A stretch of 64,000 nt of DNA, taken from NCBI GenBank assembly GCA_947034885.2, contig OX344753.2:9300001-9364000 (forward strand), read 5' to 3'. This document shows, piece after piece, positions 480 to 61,957 of the stretch (position 1 is its first letter; each line of letters starts with the position of its first letter). Under the pieces are notes generated by a model, which ran no database searches, was not told where the DNA came from, and was given only the letters and a program-made list of their open reading frames with translations. Position numbers and translations under genes: made by a program. This DNA is from Thuidium tamariscinum (Eukaryota; Streptophyta; Bryopsida; Hypnales; Thuidiaceae).

Positions 480-1580
480 CCCCAAAATGACCGAGCAATT
501 TCCTGATATGAAGACCCCTGTCAGAGAAGTAAACTGATTTTTTTTAATAAAAATAATGAAAGTATGCCTAGTCATTTGTAACCGTACGAATCATAATAAG
601 ACTGGGGGAAGGTTTTGGGGAAAAATTCTGGAGCCCAAATGGCTCTTCACGCAGCATTAGATTCTCGAGGCATCGAAGATACTTGCTTGCCGATTCAGTC
701 ATTTTCTATCTGTCCAGGTGCTTCGGCAGATGTTGCATGACGAATACATTGTTGTTTGAGGTGTGGATTTTTGGGGAGGGTAGCATAGAAGATTCACATG
801 GTTGCTGCCTAAATTTTTTTGTTGTAGCAGTTACTCATATTGGGTGGAGGATCACCAAACAACGGGGGTTTGACAGGCCCATATCAGGGATGAAGATTCC
901 TTTTTTATGGTGAAAAATCAGGTTGTCGTCAAAGACTGATCCCTGCGGTAGAAATGATGTACTGAAATTTCTAAAGGGTCAGAAATTTGTTCTACAAGAA
1001 TCGGACGGTGCATTTGAGAGAAAATGCATTTCGAATTACATCCTGTGCAACACCCGGAGAACGGACGGGTTCTCACCGCGGGAATTCACGGTGGCACCAA
1101 CATTTTTCCTGAGTACGTGACACGGCACGCATAGAGACGACGTGGCCAGTGCGCGCCAAGACATCGTAACTGTCTCTCCCGCCACCGCGTGAAGGTCACA
1201 CGCGTGTACTCGTCCTGTGCAGGAATATATTGTTTGTAAATTCGTTGTTTGTGCATGAAGAATACGAGAGTACACCCAAATCAAGTTTATGGTGATGGCG
1301 GGAACAAGGTGACTTCCGAACAGTGTTTCTCCGGGTCACCAGGTCCTTCATCCGCGCTGGCACCTCCTTCGAAGCTGCCAAACTGGGGGGTCTCCGAGCA
1401 TCCTAGGCCTCAAAAAATTCATGCCACATCAGAATCAAAATCGGAAAATTTCACCCTTTTGGAAAATTTATGCTCTACAAAATTGTAGTTAATCATTTTT
1501 CACAATATCACACAGATTTCCCATTATTCAACTCTGAAAATTAGTTGAGGACAGATTATGTCCCCGAGGACATTTTGGGG
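480..1580. mobile_element. TTAA-flanked non-autonomous DNA transposon (CCCCAAAATG ends)
   Basis: The left end reads TTAA then CCCCAAAATGACC at 476-492. The right end, reverse-complemented, reads TTAA then CCCCAAAATGTCC (1584-1568). The 13-bp ends differ at one position, and TTAA flanks both sides (476-479 and 1581-1584). The 1.1-kb interior is more GC-rich than its flanks and has only short open frames, none recognisable as transposase. Ends and target duplication are like those of the CCCCTAAA-type elements elsewhere in this window. Confidence 0.6.
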
Positions 1581-1584
1581 TTAA

Positions 1585-4500
1585 AAAAAATACACCAAAC
1601 AACAGAAGTACTCATATATACACAACATTATTTCCTTGAGAGATTCTATTTAGATACGGAGCGGGAAAGCTCAAGGATTAACTAAGCCCTCAGGGATGAA
1701 AGATTCACAGAATTAACATGGCCTTATCGATTGATTACACTGTGAAGAATTCAAAAGGGGTCCACTATTTATGCGAGTAAGAATCAATGACGAACATAGC
1801 ATATGACGGTGAGAAATTAAATAAAAATTGGACAAGAGGCACTCTCCATCCCACCTTTTCAAAATTGCTTCGAAAACTTGAGACTCAATTTGGCCGTTAA
1901 TTTTGCAGCATTCATCTTTTTCTATTCTGGAAGGGTATGCAAAAACTAAGAAAATTTTGAGAGGAAAGCCTGGCTGAAGACTTGGATCTGTAATGAAGAT
2001 GGATAAGGTGATAAGCCAGTGAGATAGGTGGATGAACAGGGGAATAGACTGTGACCCACACGGATGAAGTCAGTCCATCTGGCTTGGGCAGAGATTTGAG
2101 GGGCGCCATAGAAAGGTCGTCGGCTCGTCGCTGCTGCAGACTACCCACAGGCTTGATATGTACAGCCACGAAGAGAATCACGTTGATCTAAGGTAACTCC
2201 AGAGCTGATTCTAAATTGAAGCTGCATTGGAAACCATGTACGTCCTTGTCATTGCAAGAAATCCAAAGCGAAGGTGTTCGTAGAGAACGAGATTGCATTG
2301 GGCTTGAATTGAAAATCCTGTCACTTGAATCTTATATACTCCTTGTGGCCCTCATCCATGGCCCTGCCATGTACGTACGTCCCAGCTTTCCTGCAGAAAA
2401 ATAATTCCTCCGTCCTTAATTTCCTGCTTGTCTGTCTGCCTGTGTACTATCAAAAAAAGTTCCCCACCGACAATTATCCCTAGAAGATACTACGTAGCAT
2501 TTATAATCTTTCCACCCTTGCCGTCTTGGTTCCCGGGCTTGGTTCTCAGAAATGCAATGAGGCTGACGAGAATTCCCGATATACTCTCAGTCTCACTGAG
2601 CACACGCCTGAGGTTTCGATGAATGAAATCAAAGCGACACACTCACTGACGTATATTGTACCGACACTCTCAATGAGAAAGAATATAAACAGACAGGACC
2701 AGTTTCGCACAGCCGTAGTTCCATGGCATGCGCGCATGCATGCAACGGAAGGCAAGTATAGGCCTTCCTCAAAAAGCAGACTCACTGCATGTTGCTCATA
2801 CCTTGCTCGGTAGTCGGAATTGTGAGAACAGAAGTTCTTTTCATCGCCATTTGGGCCACATGTATGAGTGCAATGATGGAGCAAGAGTTCTGGCGGATAT
2901 TTTCATAACTATTCCGCAACAACGCGGAATGGAGTGAAGCTCGATCAGATCGTTTTGCAATTGAGGTGGAAAATTGAATCCGTGGACACTAAAATTAGAT
3001 ATGAGGTTCCATTTGGGTTCCAGTTTTTCCTCCGCTAGTTCCAAACTGCTCTACTTCCTTAACAGTCAACCTTCGACAATTTCGTGAAATTCTGCCATTT
3101 CATCAACTGCGCTTATTGATTCATATGCAAAAACGAGTTGTGCGTCGCCAATGGAAATAGTCGTGCGCATTCGATGGAGATGCAAACACTTTCCTCCTGC
3201 GTGGATAGATTCAAGCCAAGATTTAAGCCCCAAGCACCTCAATCCATATTTTGGACGTTGAACAGAGTGTTCTGGGATACTCCGTATTATTTTGTCCAAG
3301 CAACTTCTCATGTGCATTCGAACTAAGTATTACTTAAATCTCGTAAAAATACAACATTCCTTAACCGAATTGATGAAATTGAGGTAGCTGGTATGTAATA
3401 TACTTTGAGCAAAGATATTTAAGCGGAAGTGTCCCAAAATTCAGAAAAAGGATTTAGGGTTGAAAGGGTTAACCCGGAACTCTTTTGACGGATACCAGCA
3501 TTTTATTATGAAGTAAAGAGTTGATAACATGGGTACAGGCTCCGCATGTACAGGTTGAATTCATGAGAAATGGATTACAGGACGTGCATTAAATTAGACG
3601 GAAGTAGAATAGTGCATGTGCACGACCTCTGCACACAAGATCCAACGCTGAGGGCTTCCATATCTCCGCCCATTTGACAGCATATAAGCTGCCCCTCATA
3701 CATGGAATCCCAAGGGGGACTATGTTGTAAAACATGACCTTTATCATTTCGATTCCTTGAAATCCCTCCAAACTTTGGGTGTAACCCAAGCATCAACCCT
3801 TCTCACTGCAATTGCTTCGCGGCACGCAAGAACCCTCACTAACTTAGTGACCCACAAAACGCACACAGCAATGGCGAAAATCAGTCTTGCCTTTGTGTCG
3901 CTCTCTCATTTCTTTAGTGTAAATCATTTCTACTTGATGTCATTTCATCTTCTTATTCTCATTCGCGAAAGATTCAGTGTGCAGCTCTGCCATGTCCGAA
4001 GATCGGGTTTGGATAGAAAACGAAGAGCTAGACTTCAGAATTTGCGCCGGCTTTCGTTAACAAGCACACATTCATATTCTGAGCCTTTGTTAACCTCGAA
4101 CAGAAGTCATAATTAGATCAAACTCCAAATCTACACCTCAAGTTTGTACATAGCATGGGCTACTTTTGTTTCTTGTTTTCCGAGTTTTTGAAAACATTGT
4201 TGTTGCAGTTGACGGATCGAAATGTTGAGAACTCCCTGGCTACTGAAATGAACCACTGATCAAATGAGTTGCGAGAGACACTAAAACCACCTTCAATTCG
4301 ATCTGTCTTGTTCGTCTGGGCTGCTAGTACGTGTCGATCATGAACATACATTATATTACATTTAACGAATGTTAGGTTACGTTGGTATCATGGTCTCGGT
4401 AAGATTTTTATGCGTGCCTGGATGGTGTGATCCAAGTTAAATCCCAAGAGTTAATGCATAAATTGACATTCGTAGATCTTTCCTGTGAGATGTAGTGCTT

Positions 4501-9485: not shown

Positions 9486-10959
9486 TCCCTAAAAATCTAG
9501 ATTCATGTCCATAATTGACAAATTGAAAAAACCATCATAAAATACTATTTGGAAGACTATTTTGGATTGTGAAGCAAATAAAAGTTGTCGAGTTTAAATT
9601 TTAGATTCTATCCATATGGTTAGATTCACCCATGCTATTATTTACTACCTCCGTCCCAAAATGATCTTCCTATTTAACAAAATATTATGGATTAAGGTCG
9701 AAAATAACATTTTTAAGTCCCTTTTGGATTTGTAAGCAAAGCTTGGTTCATTCTTAGTATCTTTGAAACTTTGAGTTTTAAAAGCCTTTTCCAAAATGTA
9801 ATTTTAGAATATAGAAAAGTAGAATTTTGGAGGCATTTTCAAAAAGCACCAATGGGCACTTAAATTTTGAATTTGAGGTTGTTATTTTCTAGGTGATTAG
9901 TATGGGCCTAAGACCATGTGTGAACCTTTGTTCCACCTACCAAAGCTTCACCTCCTTCAAGTAGGCAACACTCAAAGAGATGCAAAAAATACAAACAAAA
10001 TGTATTGATTAACCTGTTTAGTCATTTCTTTTGTCTTTTGATTGATGATTTTATGAATGGAAGGGAAATTATTGTTTAAAGTTGTTTTGCTAGTCTTGGA
10101 CAAGAATTAAAATCCAAATTTGACAAATTTTCATGTCACAAAAAGGCAACAAGAAGATTATTTTGGGACAAAGGGAGTATAATTTTTTATGATTTTTAAA
10201 AAAAATTCAAAATTCCTTCAAAATTTAATTACAAGCAAAATATTGTCATTATTTTGAATAAATTTTGTTGGAATGGATTTGAAATGAGGTTCTTTTGATA
10301 CAATGATTTTTTGAGTTTTTTATGTTGTTAGGTTCCATGACTTCATTTTAGCAATTCTAGGTTTGAATTAGAATTAATTCAATTTTGGCTTAGTCAACTA
10401 CTTGATATACTTCTACATTTGTAATTTCTTAAAACATATGTATTCTAGTGACACCAAATCCAACCATTAGAGAAGACAACAACTTCATAAAGTATCTCTA
10501 AAAAATAGGATGACTTCAATCATCTAAGTTGTAACATTAGGGGAGATTTGAAGGCATTAGAAGCTTGCAAGCTTTTTTGAGTTCTTGGACTATGGGAACA
10601 TACCATATCAACATTTTGATGTAGTTGAGACATTGCCACTTCAGAATATATTAATTTAAAAATAAATTAAATTTAAAAATAAATTAAATTTAAAATTTAA
10701 AAATAAATTTTTTAGAAATTTTAGAAATTCAATTTTAGGTTTTTAACAATTTTTGAAATTTAACAATTCTTTTTTCAAAAAATTCAAAAACTTTAGTCAA
10801 TAGAAATGGTTTGTAGTTTTTGAACAACTCAAGGAACATGTAGGGGAACAATCTTGAAATGGAATTTTCTTGCCCTCAAATCCCTCTTAATGAGTGCAAA
10901 ATAACTCTAACTTTTAATTTGTACATTGTCTAAAAATATGATGTTGGAGTGCTTCAAGG
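9486..10959. mobile_element. TTAA-flanked element, sub-family B copy interrupted by a Stowaway-like MITE
   Basis: The left end is TTAA (9482-9485) followed by TCCCTAAAAATC. The right end is CTTCAAGG followed by TTAA (10960-10963). The interior matches the copies at 38660-39223 and 45463-46780 over most of its length, including GAATGGATTTGAAATGAG and CACCAAATCCAACCA. The insertion at 9645-10177 splits it. A further unmatched stretch at about 10,530-10,890 is probably another insertion or divergence. Confidence 0.6.
9645..10177. mobile_element. Stowaway-like (Tc1/mariner-type) MITE
   Basis: The left end CTACCTCCGTCCCAAAATGA and the right end, reverse-complemented as CTCCCTTTGTCCCAAAATAA, match at about 22 of 27 positions over 27 bp. 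TA flanks both sides (9643-9644 and 10178-10179). CTCCCTCCGTCCCA ends with a TA duplication are the hallmark of plant Stowaway elements. The 533-bp interior is non-coding. It sits inside a TTAA-flanked element, whose sister copy at 38660-39223 shows the uninterrupted sequence. Confidence 0.85.
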
Positions 10960-32520: not shown

Positions 32521-32524
32521 TTAA

Positions 32525-33172
32525 CCCCTAAATGTCCAAGGCACCAAAATTTGGTGTTTGCAAAACTTTGAAGTTAGATAAATCCTAACCAAGTTGTTAT
32601 TTTCAGGAGTTCATTTTTAAGAAAAGTTTTTTTGGAAGTCTAATTTCAATGTCAAAAATCCAATTTGGAAAATGAATGATAGTATTTTCTCTATTCAAGA
32701 TTTTGTGCAAGGATATGCATTGCAATTTTGAATTTTTGTAGTGTTGAGAGCTCTTGAAAATGAGCCTCAAATACACTAGATCTTGGAGAAAAAATCACAT
32801 TCAAAATTCATTTTCAAAAACTATAAAGCACATTGTGAAAAGTCATAAATTAATTGGAGTTATGTATGTTAGGTCCTTTAACCTTTTTTTTTTTTGGTCA
32901 CCAACTTTTCAAATTTGACTTGTGAAAAGAGGATAGAAAGACTTTACATAATTTTTGCAATTTTAACACCTTCATGGTCAAATATTATAATCTTTTATTC
33001 CATAGGTGATATTGTTGTGTTTTCTTTTCTTATGTGATCTCTAACATGTCTAAATTGAATTAATATAGTTACAATTCAAATAAAATTGACACAACTTATC
33101 AAAATGTTGACATTTTGTTCAATTTAGAGCAAATTCCAAGAAGCTCAAAACAAACCTTGGGACATTTAGGGG
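32525..33172. mobile_element. TTAA-flanked non-autonomous DNA transposon (CCCCTAAATGTCC ends)
   Basis: The two ends, CCCCTAAATGTCCAAGG and CCCCTAAATGTCCCAAGG (reverse-complemented), are inverted repeats with 13 identical bases at the tip. TTAA flanks both sides (32521-32524 and 33173-33176). The 648-bp interior is AT-rich and non-coding. Confidence 0.85.
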
Positions 33173-33539
33173 TTAAGTTAGTACACTAAATATTAGAAAT
33201 AGCTCTTCCTTGTGATAAAACTAGAAGCAACCAAAAATTCTATTGCAATGTTGAAAACACTTTTCTTCAATGAAATGTAAAAATACATATCTTTTGCTTC
33301 AGAATTTCTCCCAAAAAATTTCCTCACTTGCAACTATTGCACACTTCTTTTGATTCCATTATAAAATTCTTTTTTTCTTTTATGCAAGGTTTGGCTGATT
33401 CAAAGTGCACAAGTACTAACTGAAGGTTTACAGTAAGATATTATACATCCATTTTCATTTCATTCATCCATCCATCCATGATCGGCTTGCTTCCAAGTCT
33501 TTTCTCAAGCTTGCTGTGCGCATCGTTTGCCACTTTGCA

Positions 33540-38659: not shown

Positions 38660-39223
38660 CCCCTAAACGTCTGGATTCATCTCCAAAATTGACGATTTGG
38701 AAAAAACCATTATAAACTACGATTTGGAAGAATATTTTGGAATTGGTATACGAATGAAAGTTGTAGATTTTGATTTTTAAATTCCATCCATACAATTAGA
38801 TCTACTAATGCTATCACCAAACTTTTACTATAAATTTTGAAAAGAAAATTTCAGAATTCCTTCTAAATTCAATTACAAGTAAAATATTATCATTTTTTGA
38901 GTAAAACTTGTTGGAATGGATTTGAAATAAGGTTCTCTTCATATGGTGATTTTTTGAAATTTTTGTGACCTTTACATCTTTGACCTCATTTTTGCACATC
39001 TAGTTTTGAACTAAAGTCAATGCAAATTGACCACTTGACATACTTCCACATTTGTAATTTTAGAAATGTATATATTCTAGTAACACCAAATCCAACCAAT
39101 GGATAGGACAACAACTTGATAAAGTATCACCAAAAATTAGGATGACTTTCATCCAAGCAGGAATGAGACAAAAACAAGGATGTGAATCTGTTCATCGTCC
39201 AGAAAACAAGGAGCGCTCCAGGG
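38660..39223. mobile_element. TTAA-flanked element, sub-family B, uninterrupted copy
   Basis: The left end is TTAA (38656-38659) followed by CCCCTAAACGTC. The right end is CCAGGG followed by TTAA (39224-39227). At 564 bp this is the uninterrupted reference for the copies at 9486-10959 and 45463-46780. The terminal inverted repeat is weak beyond the first bases. Confidence 0.65.
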
Positions 39224-45462: not shown

Positions 45463-46780
45463 TCCCTAAACATTCAAATTCATCTCCAAGAAATGAAATT
45501 ATTTTAGAAAAATCATCATAAAGGATGATTGCAAGAAAGACCGGTACTATTTTGCGTCACACTTTGAATGACGGAGTTATTATTGATTATAACTTTTAAA
45601 GTATGAACCATATTAACTTGAAATTTTGACTGAAGATGTCTGATATGACAACAATAAAATTCCTTATTTTTCAGAAATTTTCAAAAATCATTTTATAATT
45701 AAATTTCAATTAAGCTAATTTGTCACACTTTGCGGTTTAGGGTTTTTTAGTATTGAGGAGCATCCAAAATTAATGATCTAAAGCTGAAATTTTTGTGGCC
45801 TATTCCCATACTAGGTAGGCATGTTTCCACCTAAGGAAATTTCAAAAATCATTATTCTCTTTCCTCTACATGTGCACAAATAGGCCTCCCTTGCTCACAT
45901 ACTTTTGAACATTTAAGATGGTTTTGAGATCATTCTTTTGGTGAAATATCTTCATCATAAATTTCTCCCAAATTGAAAATTTTTAGTTTAAAAAAAAATT
46001 CTTTTTCCTATTTTTTACAAATTAAAATGTCAAAGTACCTATTTTCATGAAAATTTGCACTTTTCTAGTTCTCCTACTTAGAGAATTTTTCTACACTTTT
46101 CCTTCCTAGGGTACCTTCTTCTTAGAGGTATATACATGAAACATATTTTTTACATTTAAAAAAAATTGTTTTTCTAATTATACAGTACTCCCGAAAATTT
46201 CAACAGTATTGTGAAAAACGCTACATAAATCGGTTTGTCTTTCTTGCAATGACCCTAAAGTACTATTTGGAAGAATATTTAGGAAGTGAGATGCAAATAA
46301 AAGTTTTAGAGTTTGACTTTTAGATTCTATCCACATGGTTAGATTCACCAAAGCTATCACCAATATTTCCTATAAATTTTGAAAGGAAAAATTGATTTTT
46401 TTTGCTAGATTCAATTACAAGAAAAATATTGTCATTTTTGAGTAAATTTTTATTAGAATGGATTTGAAATGAAGTTCTCTTGATACAATGATTTTTTGAA
46501 ATTTTTGTATTCTTTGATTTTGTAACTTCATTTATGCAATTCCAAGTTTAAAATAAAGTCAATGCAATTTTGGTTTGGTCAACCACTTGACAAACTTCCA
46601 CATTTGTAATTTTAGAAAAATATGTACTCTAATTACATCAAACCCAACCCTTGGATGGGACAACAACTTGATAAAGTATGTCTGAAAATTAGGATGACTT
46701 TCATCCAAGCTATAATGAGAAAAAAATCTAATCTTCAATCTATACATCATCCATAAATTGAATGTCAAAGCACTTCAAGG
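45463..46780. mobile_element. TTAA-flanked element, sub-family B, interrupted by a GGGTGATTGC-family element
   Basis: The left end is TTAA (45459-45462) followed by TCCCTAAACATTC. The right end is CTTCAAGG followed by TTAA (46781-46784). The halves outside 45523-46255 align with the copy at 38660-39223. The interior has no transposase frame. Confidence 0.65.
45523..46255. mobile_element. GGGTGATTGC-family element nested in a TTAA element (4-bp TSD TAAA)
   Basis: The ends GGATGATTGCAAGAAAGAC and GGGTCATTGCAAGAAAGAC (reverse-complemented) are flanked by TAAA (45519-45522 and 46256-46259). The host copy at 38660-39223 reads straight through the junction. The element is 733 bp, non-coding, and the best-preserved non-foldback member. 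Confidence 0.85.
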
Positions 46781-52101: not shown

Positions 52102-52525
52102 ATTTTGAAGAATTGGCCCTCAATTTCCTTGTCCCTCATCTTTGTTTATTAACCCCTGAACGACGAGCCGGTGGCCGTGGAAATGAGGAATTTTGATACC
52201 ATGGAAATCATTGGTTCAAAAAATTCTAAAAGCACTCGTTGGAAGTTAAAGCACTGTAGAAGATCTTCCTTTTCCACCCCTAATTCCGAGGATGAATGAT
52301 TGCTATTTTGTCCTACATAGAAAGATTCTCTCGTGTTCATCGACCTCAAAATGGCTTCGGCGTCGTTTAAGGGTTAAACACAGCTCATAGTTAGTTGAAT
52401 GACCACTCATCAAGTAAAATAATAGTTCGTTTTGAAGATTTGGTCCTCAATTTCCTTGTCTTTCATCCTTGCTTATCAAACACAACCTATAGTTAGTTGA
52501 ATGACTACTCATCAAGTAAAATAAA
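52102..52525. repeat. Direct duplication of about 97 bp, first copy split by a transposon
   Basis: The sequence 52102-52148 plus 52378-52428 matches 52429-52525 (shared CTCAATTTCCTTGTC, TAGTTAGTTGAATGA, ACTCATCAAGTAAAATAA). The first copy is interrupted exactly at TTAA by the element at 52153-52373. The second copy has a single TCAA there. Confidence 0.85.
52153..52373. mobile_element. TTAA-flanked MITE, sub-family C (221 bp)
   Basis: The ends CCCCTGAACGACG and CCCTTAAACGACG (reverse-complemented) are 13-bp inverted repeats. TTAA flanks both sides (52149-52152 and 52374-52377). The neighbouring duplicate at 52429-52525 provides the empty site. The interior is homologous to the element at 61729-61957. 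Confidence 0.88.
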
Positions 52526-53285: not shown

Positions 53286-53985
53286 CCCCTAAAGGACCAA
53301 GCTACATTTTTTGGCAACATAGCGATTTTTGGCAGCTTACTACGCATGGAGTTTTTGTTTTTTTTTCTTTAAAATTTTCATACAATGTGTGTCCCAGGAG
53401 TAGCTTTAAGACCCAACAATTTTTGTACCTTTTGAGTACATGGTTAAAAAGTTATTGCATGATATGTCATTTTCATTTGATGGTAGGCACTCAGGCAGTC
53501 CGGGCACCCCAAAAAACTTCTTCAAAAAACACTTTTTAAAATATTTGAAATTGATTCTTTACATTTATATACATATGGTAAGCTTTGAATCAGTCCATTT
53601 GGATTAATTAAATGAAAGTTATGAGGAATTTTAAGGTAGAAGGCTCTTAAATGGAACAGGTTCTAAAATGGTGCCCTATCTTAAATGTATAGTACTTGTA
53701 CATGTTGCTTTTTCATAGTCTTTAGCAATGTATTGACAGTGTACATTCTAGTTAGGGCACCATTTTAGAGCCCTATGCGCTTTCAACTTCAAAATTTGAA
53801 AACTAATTCAAAAAATCTCAGAAAAATATGGAACAACTTGGGTTAGATGTCAATTCTACTTTTATTTCAAGGAAAATTTACTAAAAAATATTTCTAAAAA
53901 ATTAAACCCCCTGAAATTCTGTTTCAGCCCTTAGATGGTCCATTATAGGACCTCCTACCTTAGTTTGTGGGTAGGTATGAATTTC
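53286..53985. mobile_element. TTAA element, sub-family A, right-truncated, with nested TA-flanked MITE
   Basis: The left end is TTAA (53282-53285) followed by CCCCTAAAGGACCAA, identical over 15 bp to the left end of the copy at 57901-58826. Homology runs about 350 bp to the nested insertion at 53634-53960 and then about 20 bp further. The rest of the element and its right end are missing. Confidence 0.7.
53634..53960. mobile_element. Nested TA-flanked MITE (AGGTAGRAGG ends)
   Basis: The ends AGGTAGAAGGCTCTTAAATG and AGGTAGGAGGTCCTATAATG (reverse-complemented) are inverted, with TA on both sides (53632-53633 and 53961-53962). A subterminal inverted pair (TTCTAAAATGGTGCCCTA and its inverse) lies inside. 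The sister copy at 57901-58826 shows the uninterrupted host with one TA. The 327-bp element is non-coding. Confidence 0.75.
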
Positions 53986-57896: not shown

Positions 57897-57900
57897 TTAA

Positions 57901-58826
57901 CCCCTAAAGGACCAACATGCCTTTTTTTGGCAACATAGTGATTTTGGGCAAGTACGTGTGGCTACAGATTTCTATATTTTGGAACCAAACTTTAATATAA
58001 GGTGTGGATGAGGAGTATCTTCAAAGCCCAACAATTTTCGTGACTTTTGACTACATGGTTGAAAAATTATCGCATAAAACGTTGTTTATTTCTCAACTTG
58101 GGCAATTTGGGCAGATCAGAAAAAATCGCTTTTTTTGGAAATAAAAATTTGAAATTTTTTTCATAGATTTATATATACATGTAAAGCTTTGAATCATTCC
58201 ATTTGGATTAATGAGTCAAAAGTTATGAATGATTTTAGTTTGCGGGTAGTTATGGATTCTCTTCTCTAAAATAAACTTTGAAGTCCTTTATTTTACTCAA
58301 TTTTCAATATTTTTGAAAAAAAATAAAAATATTGGGTGTAGATTGTTTATTACAACATTTGAACCATTGGGATTGGCATTTTTCAATTCAATAAATAAAT
58401 TGTTACCATTTTTGTATTTTGAATCATTCTCTACTTCTTTCTTCTTACTATTTTTTTGTACATGTTGTACAATTCCAAATGATCTAAAAATTTTCAAGCA
58501 TGTAGACAACTTGAATTGGAGAATTAATCCAAAGAGCTGCAACCATTTTGAACACTTTTGCATACAAATGTGACCTTCTGAAGTGCAGCTGCCCGGATTT
58601 TCGCAGTGGAAAAAAAAATGATTTTTGTAACTTCAAACACTAATATCTTGCAATCTACATGGCGGAAATTTCTGAAATTTTTTCTACATCTTCCCAAACT
58701 AGTGCACTAAGAGATCTTACGGTTACATGTGTCAAAAAATGTCTTTTTTCTGAAATTTGGTAGCTCTCTTAGAAATAATAGTTTTGAAGCAGTTTTGGTG
58801 GAAACATAGTTGCAGTCCTTTAGGGG
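57901..58826. mobile_element. TTAA-flanked non-autonomous DNA transposon, sub-family A, complete copy
   Basis: The ends CCCCTAAAGGACCAAC and CCCCTAAAGGACTGCAAC (reverse-complemented) share 12 identical tip bases. TTAA flanks both sides (57897-57900 and 58827-58830). The 926-bp interior has short overlapping frames on both strands (86-88 codons) with no transposase likeness. Its left half is homologous to 53286-53633. Confidence 0.88.
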
Positions 58827-58830
58827 TTAA

Positions 58831-61728: not shown

Positions 61729-61957
61729 CCCTTGAAGGACAAACCTTGGTGACCATGAAATTGGATGATCTATTTTGATATTGTGGGAATCAATGGTTTA
61801 AAAGAAAATCCAAAAGCACTTATTGGAAACCAAAAATTGTAGATGATCACTCCTTTCCACTCAAAATTTCAAGGATAAAAAGTTGCACTTTAGACCTACA
61901 TACAAAGATTCTTTGTCATCCCTTAAATGCCAAATGTCCTTGTCTATATTTAAGGGG
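61729..61957. mobile_element. TTAA MITE, sub-family C, older copy
   Basis: The left end is TTAA (61725-61728) followed by CCCTTGAAGGAC. The right end is degenerate (AAGGGG followed by GTAA-like sequence near 61,957). The interior aligns with 52153-52373 (shared GGAATCAATGG/GGAAATCATTGG, AAAAGCACTYRTTGGAA, CCTACATA). It is non-coding. Confidence 0.65.

Follow-up and report, generated by a model that had tools for sequence, protein, structure and literature searches.

Short elements in the window

The window, the whole stretch of 64,000 nucleotides analysed here, contains at 57901..58826 on the forward strand a non-autonomous element of piggyBac, a transposon type known mainly from animals. This element represents the 57901 family and lies between TTAA at 57897-57900 and TTAA at 58827-58830. 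A low-copy non-autonomous piggyBac element, 480, occupies 480..1580 on the reverse strand, with TTAA at 476-479 and 1581-1584, and is kin to the full-length elements PB13, PB15 and PB-B described below. The non-autonomous element of the 32525 family (32525..33172, forward strand; TTAA at 32521-32524 and 33173-33176) and a 221-bp MITE, 52153 (52153..52373, no strand assigned; TTAA at 52149-52152 and 52374-52377), belong to the same set of four, which the initial annotation had described as CCCC-ended with TTAA on both sides. The flanks were as described in all four, and CCCC forms both ends of 480, 32525 and 57901, but 52153 has CCCC at one end and CCCT at the right one.

The other elements had been called diverged or truncated. 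The 57901-family relative at 53286..53985 (forward strand) is a left part whose right end is missing, with TTAA on the left only, and the diverged relative of 52153 at 61729..61957 has TTAA on the left and, read towards the element, CTTA on the right. The three diverged elements of a further group, at 38660..39223, 45463..46780 and, with decayed tips, 9486..10959, nevertheless keep TTAA on both sides (no strand is assigned to these three or to 61729). In BLAST comparisons, 53286 is 69% identical to 57901 over 358 aligned bp, and 61729 is 72% identical to 52153 over 185 aligned bp. The interiors fall by BLAST into five groups, {9486, 38660, 45463}, {52153, 61729}, {53286, 57901}, {480} and {32525}, in agreement with the about five unrelated interiors first reported. 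The earlier remark that the window encodes no transposase holds for piggyBac: a tblastn search with nine transposases from the same genome as queries found none there at E 0.01.

The TTAACCCC/GGGGTTAA motif occurs 10 times in the window, against a mean of 1.98 and a maximum of 7 in 100 first-order simulations. More TTAACCC tips lie at 3472, 11195, 24562, 26368 and 34660, outside all named elements.

TTAA at the boundaries of copies

Our searches covered a 363-Mb assembly in 19 contigs. We call its host a moss on the similarity of one window gene, a receptor-like kinase whose top named matches, among the best 120 of 2,213, are from Ceratodon purpureus (55%) and Physcomitrium patens (51%). Genome-wide, we counted 15,075 occurrences of the tip TTAACCCYTRAANGNC (7,529 + 7,546), against 11 (5 + 6) of a reversed-pattern control. 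TTAA precedes 4,488 of the 5,028 CCCCTAAAGGACCA tips genome-wide (89%); the frequency of TTAA starts per window position is 0.0068 (0.7%). The initial annotation had proposed to count TTAA at copy boundaries and had named other flanks as the outcome that would speak against its reading. TTAA was found at most boundaries. The 57901 family has at least 41 copies at 93-100% identity, the window copy included, and in eight copies, again with that of the window, TTAA was present at 16 of 16 boundaries and thus on both sides of all eight. For the 32525 family, with at least 40 copies genome-wide, the count was 20 of 24 boundaries, and both sides in 9 of 12 copies including that of the window. The MITE 52153 has at least 44 matches genome-wide; in 10 copies, counted apart from the window copy, TTAA was found at 16 of 20 boundaries and on both sides of seven. 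A genome-wide search with 480 gave three full-length copies, the window one included, with TTAA at six of six boundaries.

Some of the exceptions are instructive. A copy of 52153 is flanked by TTAT at either end, which is a matching 4-bp variant duplication. Two 32525 copies also have equal flanks if we allow for a change in their first base: CTAA in L109 and TTAA in L111. Plain misses occur at three boundaries, with GTAA, CTAA and ATAA opposite TTAA. Two 32525 copies (L112 and L114) count as one insertion, because their flanks are common to both. A sample of 17 MITE loci, from which three further loci were left out, is not part of the TTAA evidence, because its loci were chosen from tips already with TTAA.

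One 57901-family copy (L005) is nested within an older relative of the 57901 family, which provides a comparison between occupied and uninterrupted sites. When the two flanks are joined, they align over 326 columns, at 78-79%, with every one of the seven copies compared, all of them uninterrupted at this position. The uninterrupted site in the alignment with L008 has one TTAA, and the occupied site in L005 has TTAA on both sides. TTAA target-site duplications and terminal inverted repeats starting with CCC were found for the 57901 and 480 elements and for their full-length parents.

At several places neighbouring elements share or abut a single TTAA (L085, L022, G000:C9:20594023-20594460 and G000:C8:11846731-11847158). 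They look as if the TTAA next to one element had served as the target of its neighbour.

Full-length piggyBac elements in the genome

The search for a piggyBac-domain transposase that had been suggested for the whole genome was productive. The PF13843 profile placed at least 116 domains above the cut-off (116 of the 659 candidates were scored, and all 116 were over it), and no domain passed the cut-off in any of 14 control genomes. Five elements, PB-A, PB-B, PB-C, PB-E and PB-F, have TTAACCC at both ends and are complete, with lengths of 4.9-5.6 kb. PB-A is present with its 1,023-aa frame at no fewer than 11 places; TTAA lies outside its 3' end in nine of the nine copies examined and outside its 5' end in all four extended copies, the neighbouring DNA being different each time. 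Stop-to-stop frames span 847-1023 aa in five elements, and that of a sixth (PB-F) is split by a stop. Two further elements are PB01 (C7; 5,143 bp, with an open frame of 774 aa) and PB10 (C2; 5,173 bp, with one of 877 aa), their lengths given with the TTAA of both ends.

Another 20 hits were screened with a tip filter that demanded a CCC start, at least 8 of 12 matches to the tip consensus and 80 bases of sequence. Filtered tips were present at both ends in 13, at the 5' end only in one, at the 3' end only in one and at neither end in five, so that 7 of the 20 piggyBac domains have at least one end without a filtered tip in the zones examined. Before filtering, PB12, PB17 and PB18 also show a 3' tip, which was dropped in PB17 for being too near the zone end and in PB12 and PB18 for a score below the threshold. 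The filtered set also left out the second PB-B copy and the window elements 9486, 45463 and 53286.

A motif scan of six frames (all other than PB10) found piggyBac-type Asp motifs and a C-terminal Cys cluster. In one of the six (L032) the second motif reads TTDHFF and escaped the search pattern. These motifs contain what we take to be the catalytic Asp residues of the moss frames. The PB-A transposase matches the PDB chains of piggyBat and piggyBac, with a HMMER alignment to piggyBat.

Ahead of the transposase frame lies another open frame, part of which is similar in sequence between elements, clearly so in PB-A and PB-E (L034:5043-5897, L035:4352-5242) and more weakly in PB-B (L033:4856-5665). 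These upstream frames had no Pfam match in any of the three elements, and each may be a 5' (N-terminal) exon of the transposase.

Architecture of the ends

From 19 ends of each kind we removed those with at least 45 of 56 bases identical to an earlier end, which left 12 non-redundant 5' ends and 16 non-redundant 3' ends. All non-redundant piggyBac ends have CCC at nt 1-3 and A at nt 7, CCC being itself a filter for most of them; G stands at nt 10 in 94-100% and C at nt 12 in 83-94%. Behind these tips, a perfect palindrome with 5-bp arms starts at nt 16-19 in 7 of the 12 5' ends, against a mean of 0.25 and a maximum of 3 in 500 shuffles, and in none of the 16 3' ends. With 6-bp arms, starts common to two or more ends are found only at nt 16-18 of 5' ends. 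The position is constant but the arms vary by lineage, examples being TCCCC/GGGGA, GACCA/TGGTC and GGACA/TGTCC.

The short elements of the window carry such a palindrome at one end. It pairs in 5 of 5 arm positions in 480 (GGACA/TGTCC at 1549..1563, reverse strand, in the right-hand, that is 5', end) and in the left end of 32525 (CACCAAAATTTGGTG at 32542..32556, forward strand), and in 4 of 5 in the left end of 57901 (TGCC..GGCA at 57918..57932, forward strand, within nt 17-33 from the tip and so in the register of bp 17-33 of the moth piggyBac left end); 52153 has a remnant with 3 of 5. Among MITE ends in general the signal is weaker, with 7 of 37 non-redundant ends against a shuffled mean of 0.80 and maximum of 5, and with up to 4 at other positions.

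The 3' ends have a motif of their own, ACCGYR, at nt 54 in 8 of 21 and at nt 103-104 in 7 of 21, counted in the first 120 bases with near-copies included (L043-L082 and others). It may be a second transposase-binding site.

Matches between short and full-length elements

The 57901-type elements resemble the PB01/PB10 lineage. Six of nine match PB01 collinearly at both ends, two (L086 and L096) at the 3' end only and one (L088) at neither, the matched stretches measuring roughly 50-140 bp on the 5' side and 90-311 bp on the 3' side; their middle of about 500 bp has no match in PB01. The 57901 element itself is 78% identical to L086 over its whole length and is tied directly to PB01 at one end. 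Over 186 bp, its right end is 62% identical to the PB01 3' end (E 2e-10, end comparison with permissive scoring), and its left end matches no piggyBac end even in the permissive end-to-end comparison.

The element 480 resembles instead the PB13/PB15/PB-B lineage and is collinear with it at both ends: its right end matches the 5' ends of PB13, PB15 and PB-B with E values between 3e-14 and 6e-7; at the left end there are matches to PB15 (E 2e-4) and PB13 (E 0.002). The genome-wide search with 480 has the PB13 5' end among its weaker matches. The matches of 480 and 57901 emerged only with end-to-end comparison and more permissive scoring. Default BLAST of 480, 32525, 52153, 53286 and 57901 against full piggyBac elements other than PB13 and PB15 gave none at E 1e-4.

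The end matches of 32525, 52153, 53286 and 45463 have E 0.002-0.004 and were set aside, since a reversed control gave one match by chance, at E 0.002. They include 52153 against PB 5' ends (best E 0.002) and 45463 against the PB12 end (E 0.004, not above the control); the resemblance of 52153 ends to the PB-A/PB-F/PB19 group is one seen by eye only. For the 32525, 52153 and 9486 groups, no parent lineage was found among the piggyBac ends compared, all matches being at the level of the reversed control or absent. Long copies with the same ends, which the initial annotation had proposed to search for, exist for 57901-type elements (PB01/PB10) and for 480 (PB13/PB15/PB-B); none was found for the three remaining groups. 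DDE_Tnp_1_7 (piggyBac) transposases are encoded by the elements whose ends are shared with the 57901-type and 480-type, and the contrary outcome, an autonomous parent with another class of transposase, did not occur.

The two groups match different piggyBac ends and therefore follow two lineages. The earlier proposal that several non-autonomous families were mobilised by one enzyme is thus not supported in its simple form; the transposases of the two lineages are about 35% identical (PB10 compared with PB-B). A single piggyBac transposase acting on all five groups through the tips, the only part that they have in common, would fit the tip positions shared by all lineages (nt 1-3, 7, 10 and 12), which make some cross-mobilisation possible. 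Yet the matches of 57901-type and 480-type elements to different lineages extend beyond the tips, and long open frames are present in several lineages, so that we consider a single enzyme improbable. The end matches on either side of an unmatched middle suggest that the 57901-type elements are deletion derivatives, in which the middle has either diverged or come from elsewhere.

Divergence and probable recent movement

The copies of PB-A are nearly identical: when eight were compared with the first over 3,984 bases, seven had one difference and one had two. Eight 57901 copies lie 1.1-2.8% from their consensus, a divergence that leans young because seven of them were chosen as best matches to the window copy. 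The two other full-length copies of 480 are 98% identical, and the 32525 copies among the matches listed are 85-87% identical to the window copy. Some full piggyBac copies have probably moved recently, as judged from their similarity.

One might alternatively regard the TTAACCC elements as old debris of an extinct invasion, as the diverged or truncated copies in the window and the 85-87% identity of the listed 32525 matches would suggest. This is very unlikely in view of the one or two differences in 3,984 bases between PB-A copies, the 98% identity of the full-length 480 copies and, with its lean towards young copies, the low divergence of the 57901 family.

Discussion

Our results leave us highly confident that the short elements are non-autonomous piggyBac-superfamily transposons of the moss. 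This reading builds on the TTAA flanks, the comparison of occupied and uninterrupted sites, the open transposase frames between like ends and the homology of 57901-type and 480 ends. We regard the 57901-type and 480 groups as firm members of piggyBac, the proposed diagnosis from TTAA and CCC ends having been borne out there by flanks, a nested copy of the 57901 family and parents with DDE_Tnp_1_7; the remaining groups are likely members, on flanks and tips. It is hardly credible that the elements come from a different superfamily that targets A+T-rich sites (PIF/Harbinger, Tc1/mariner or Sola, which make many plant MITEs), TTAA being a coincidence of target plus tip, when both-side TTAA is found in 8 of 8, 9 of 12 and 7 of 10 copies of 57901, 32525 and 52153, when variant duplications stay matched and 4 bp long (TTAT/TTAT in a 52153 copy, and CTAA/CTAA in L109 if its first base changed), and when, for 57901-type elements and 480, this view is already contradicted by the homology of their ends to DDE_Tnp_1_7 elements.

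The piggyBac reading implies a mechanism, which we model on known piggyBac relatives. In the 5' end the transposase would bind the palindrome that spans about nt 17-33; it would also bind the CCC tip, cut at TTAA and insert the element into another TTAA, leaving TTAA on both sides. Different piggyBac lineages would have given rise to short elements that kept the two ends and lost the gene, and transposases of the matching lineages would have amplified them. That moss transposases move the short elements, the pairing of each lineage with its elements and their origin by internal deletion are our inferences. The counterpart of the palindrome in moth piggyBac is a palindromic internal repeat, situated at bp 17-33; on one left end it is occupied by a dimer of the cysteine-rich domain (PMC7351741). 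By analogy, the moss palindrome at about nt 17 of the 5' end is a predicted site for the cysteine-rich domain.

On balance we favour, with some reservation, a broader interpretation: the piggyBac branch of mosses may be long-lived, diverse and still mobile, with each lineage maintaining for its cysteine-rich domain a palindrome diverged in sequence but fixed in position, and feeding its own swarm of MITEs. If so, these elements would form a natural series in which to read the co-evolution of piggyBac ends and transposase. The genome also offers several pairs of transposase and ends for testing how the cysteine-rich domain reads the palindrome, and may provide plant-adapted transposases. In plants, piggyBac serves as an animal-derived tool for marker excision, to judge from reference titles in PMC12732532. 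New, in our view, are the autonomous elements, the matching of two MITE groups to their lineages, the indications of recent movement and the palindrome at its fixed position.

In database searches, the PB-A and PB10 transposases come closest to unnamed environmental proteins, with up to 68% and 66% identity, respectively. Among the 68 (PB-A) and 53 (PB10) matches listed, those named to species are animals at 34% identity or less, and none carries a plant name. A FastTree phylogeny, a quick method applied to rows picked by similarity to the moss queries, placed all nine moss rows and 37 unnamed rows in one branch with support 99, apart from the named animals. The environmental PF13843 proteins (such as P0001-P0012 and P0189-P0210) thus resemble the moss transposases as their closest relatives, but instead of leaving the moss rows as one group they interleave with them inside the branch, with at least five label changes. 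Many JGI proteins, some on several contigs, are close to the PB10 transposase (P0189-P0209) and may come from mosses or algae present in the environments sampled.

The introduction of PMC12732532 gives only occasional occurrences of native piggyBac in plants (red algae). More than 100 piggyBac domains, near-identical copies and about 15,000 tips in a moss would change this picture. A plant review names PiggyBac among plant superfamilies and gives no detail where it does so (PMC10794571), and a repeat table of the C-fern genome has 1,230 'PiggyBac' copies that amount to 0.00% of the assembly (PMC6890710). Among the papers listed, judged by title and abstract start, we found no study of native moss piggyBac, which does not amount to absence from print. 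In the passages of PMC10619864 the term appears only within 'piggybacking', and a search combining piggyBac, MITE and TTAA in plant genomes led to work on insects and Daphnia and to reviews.

The tip of Trichoplusia ni piggyBac is CCC, as in the moss elements. The moth element also has in common with them the TTAA target, a DDD transposase with a C-terminal cysteine-rich domain and a left-end palindromic internal repeat at bp 17-33 (PMC7351741). The two differ in that the moss elements measure 4.9-5.6 kb, with frames of 847-1023 aa in five of them, and in that the right end of the moth element has an internal repeat (PMC7351741), whereas our scan found no palindrome common to moss 3' ends. The PB elements of beetles resemble those of the moss in their TTAA duplications, mostly CCC-type tips and single transposase frame, but are smaller, at 2,074-3,465 bp and 500-725 aa (PMC12732532).
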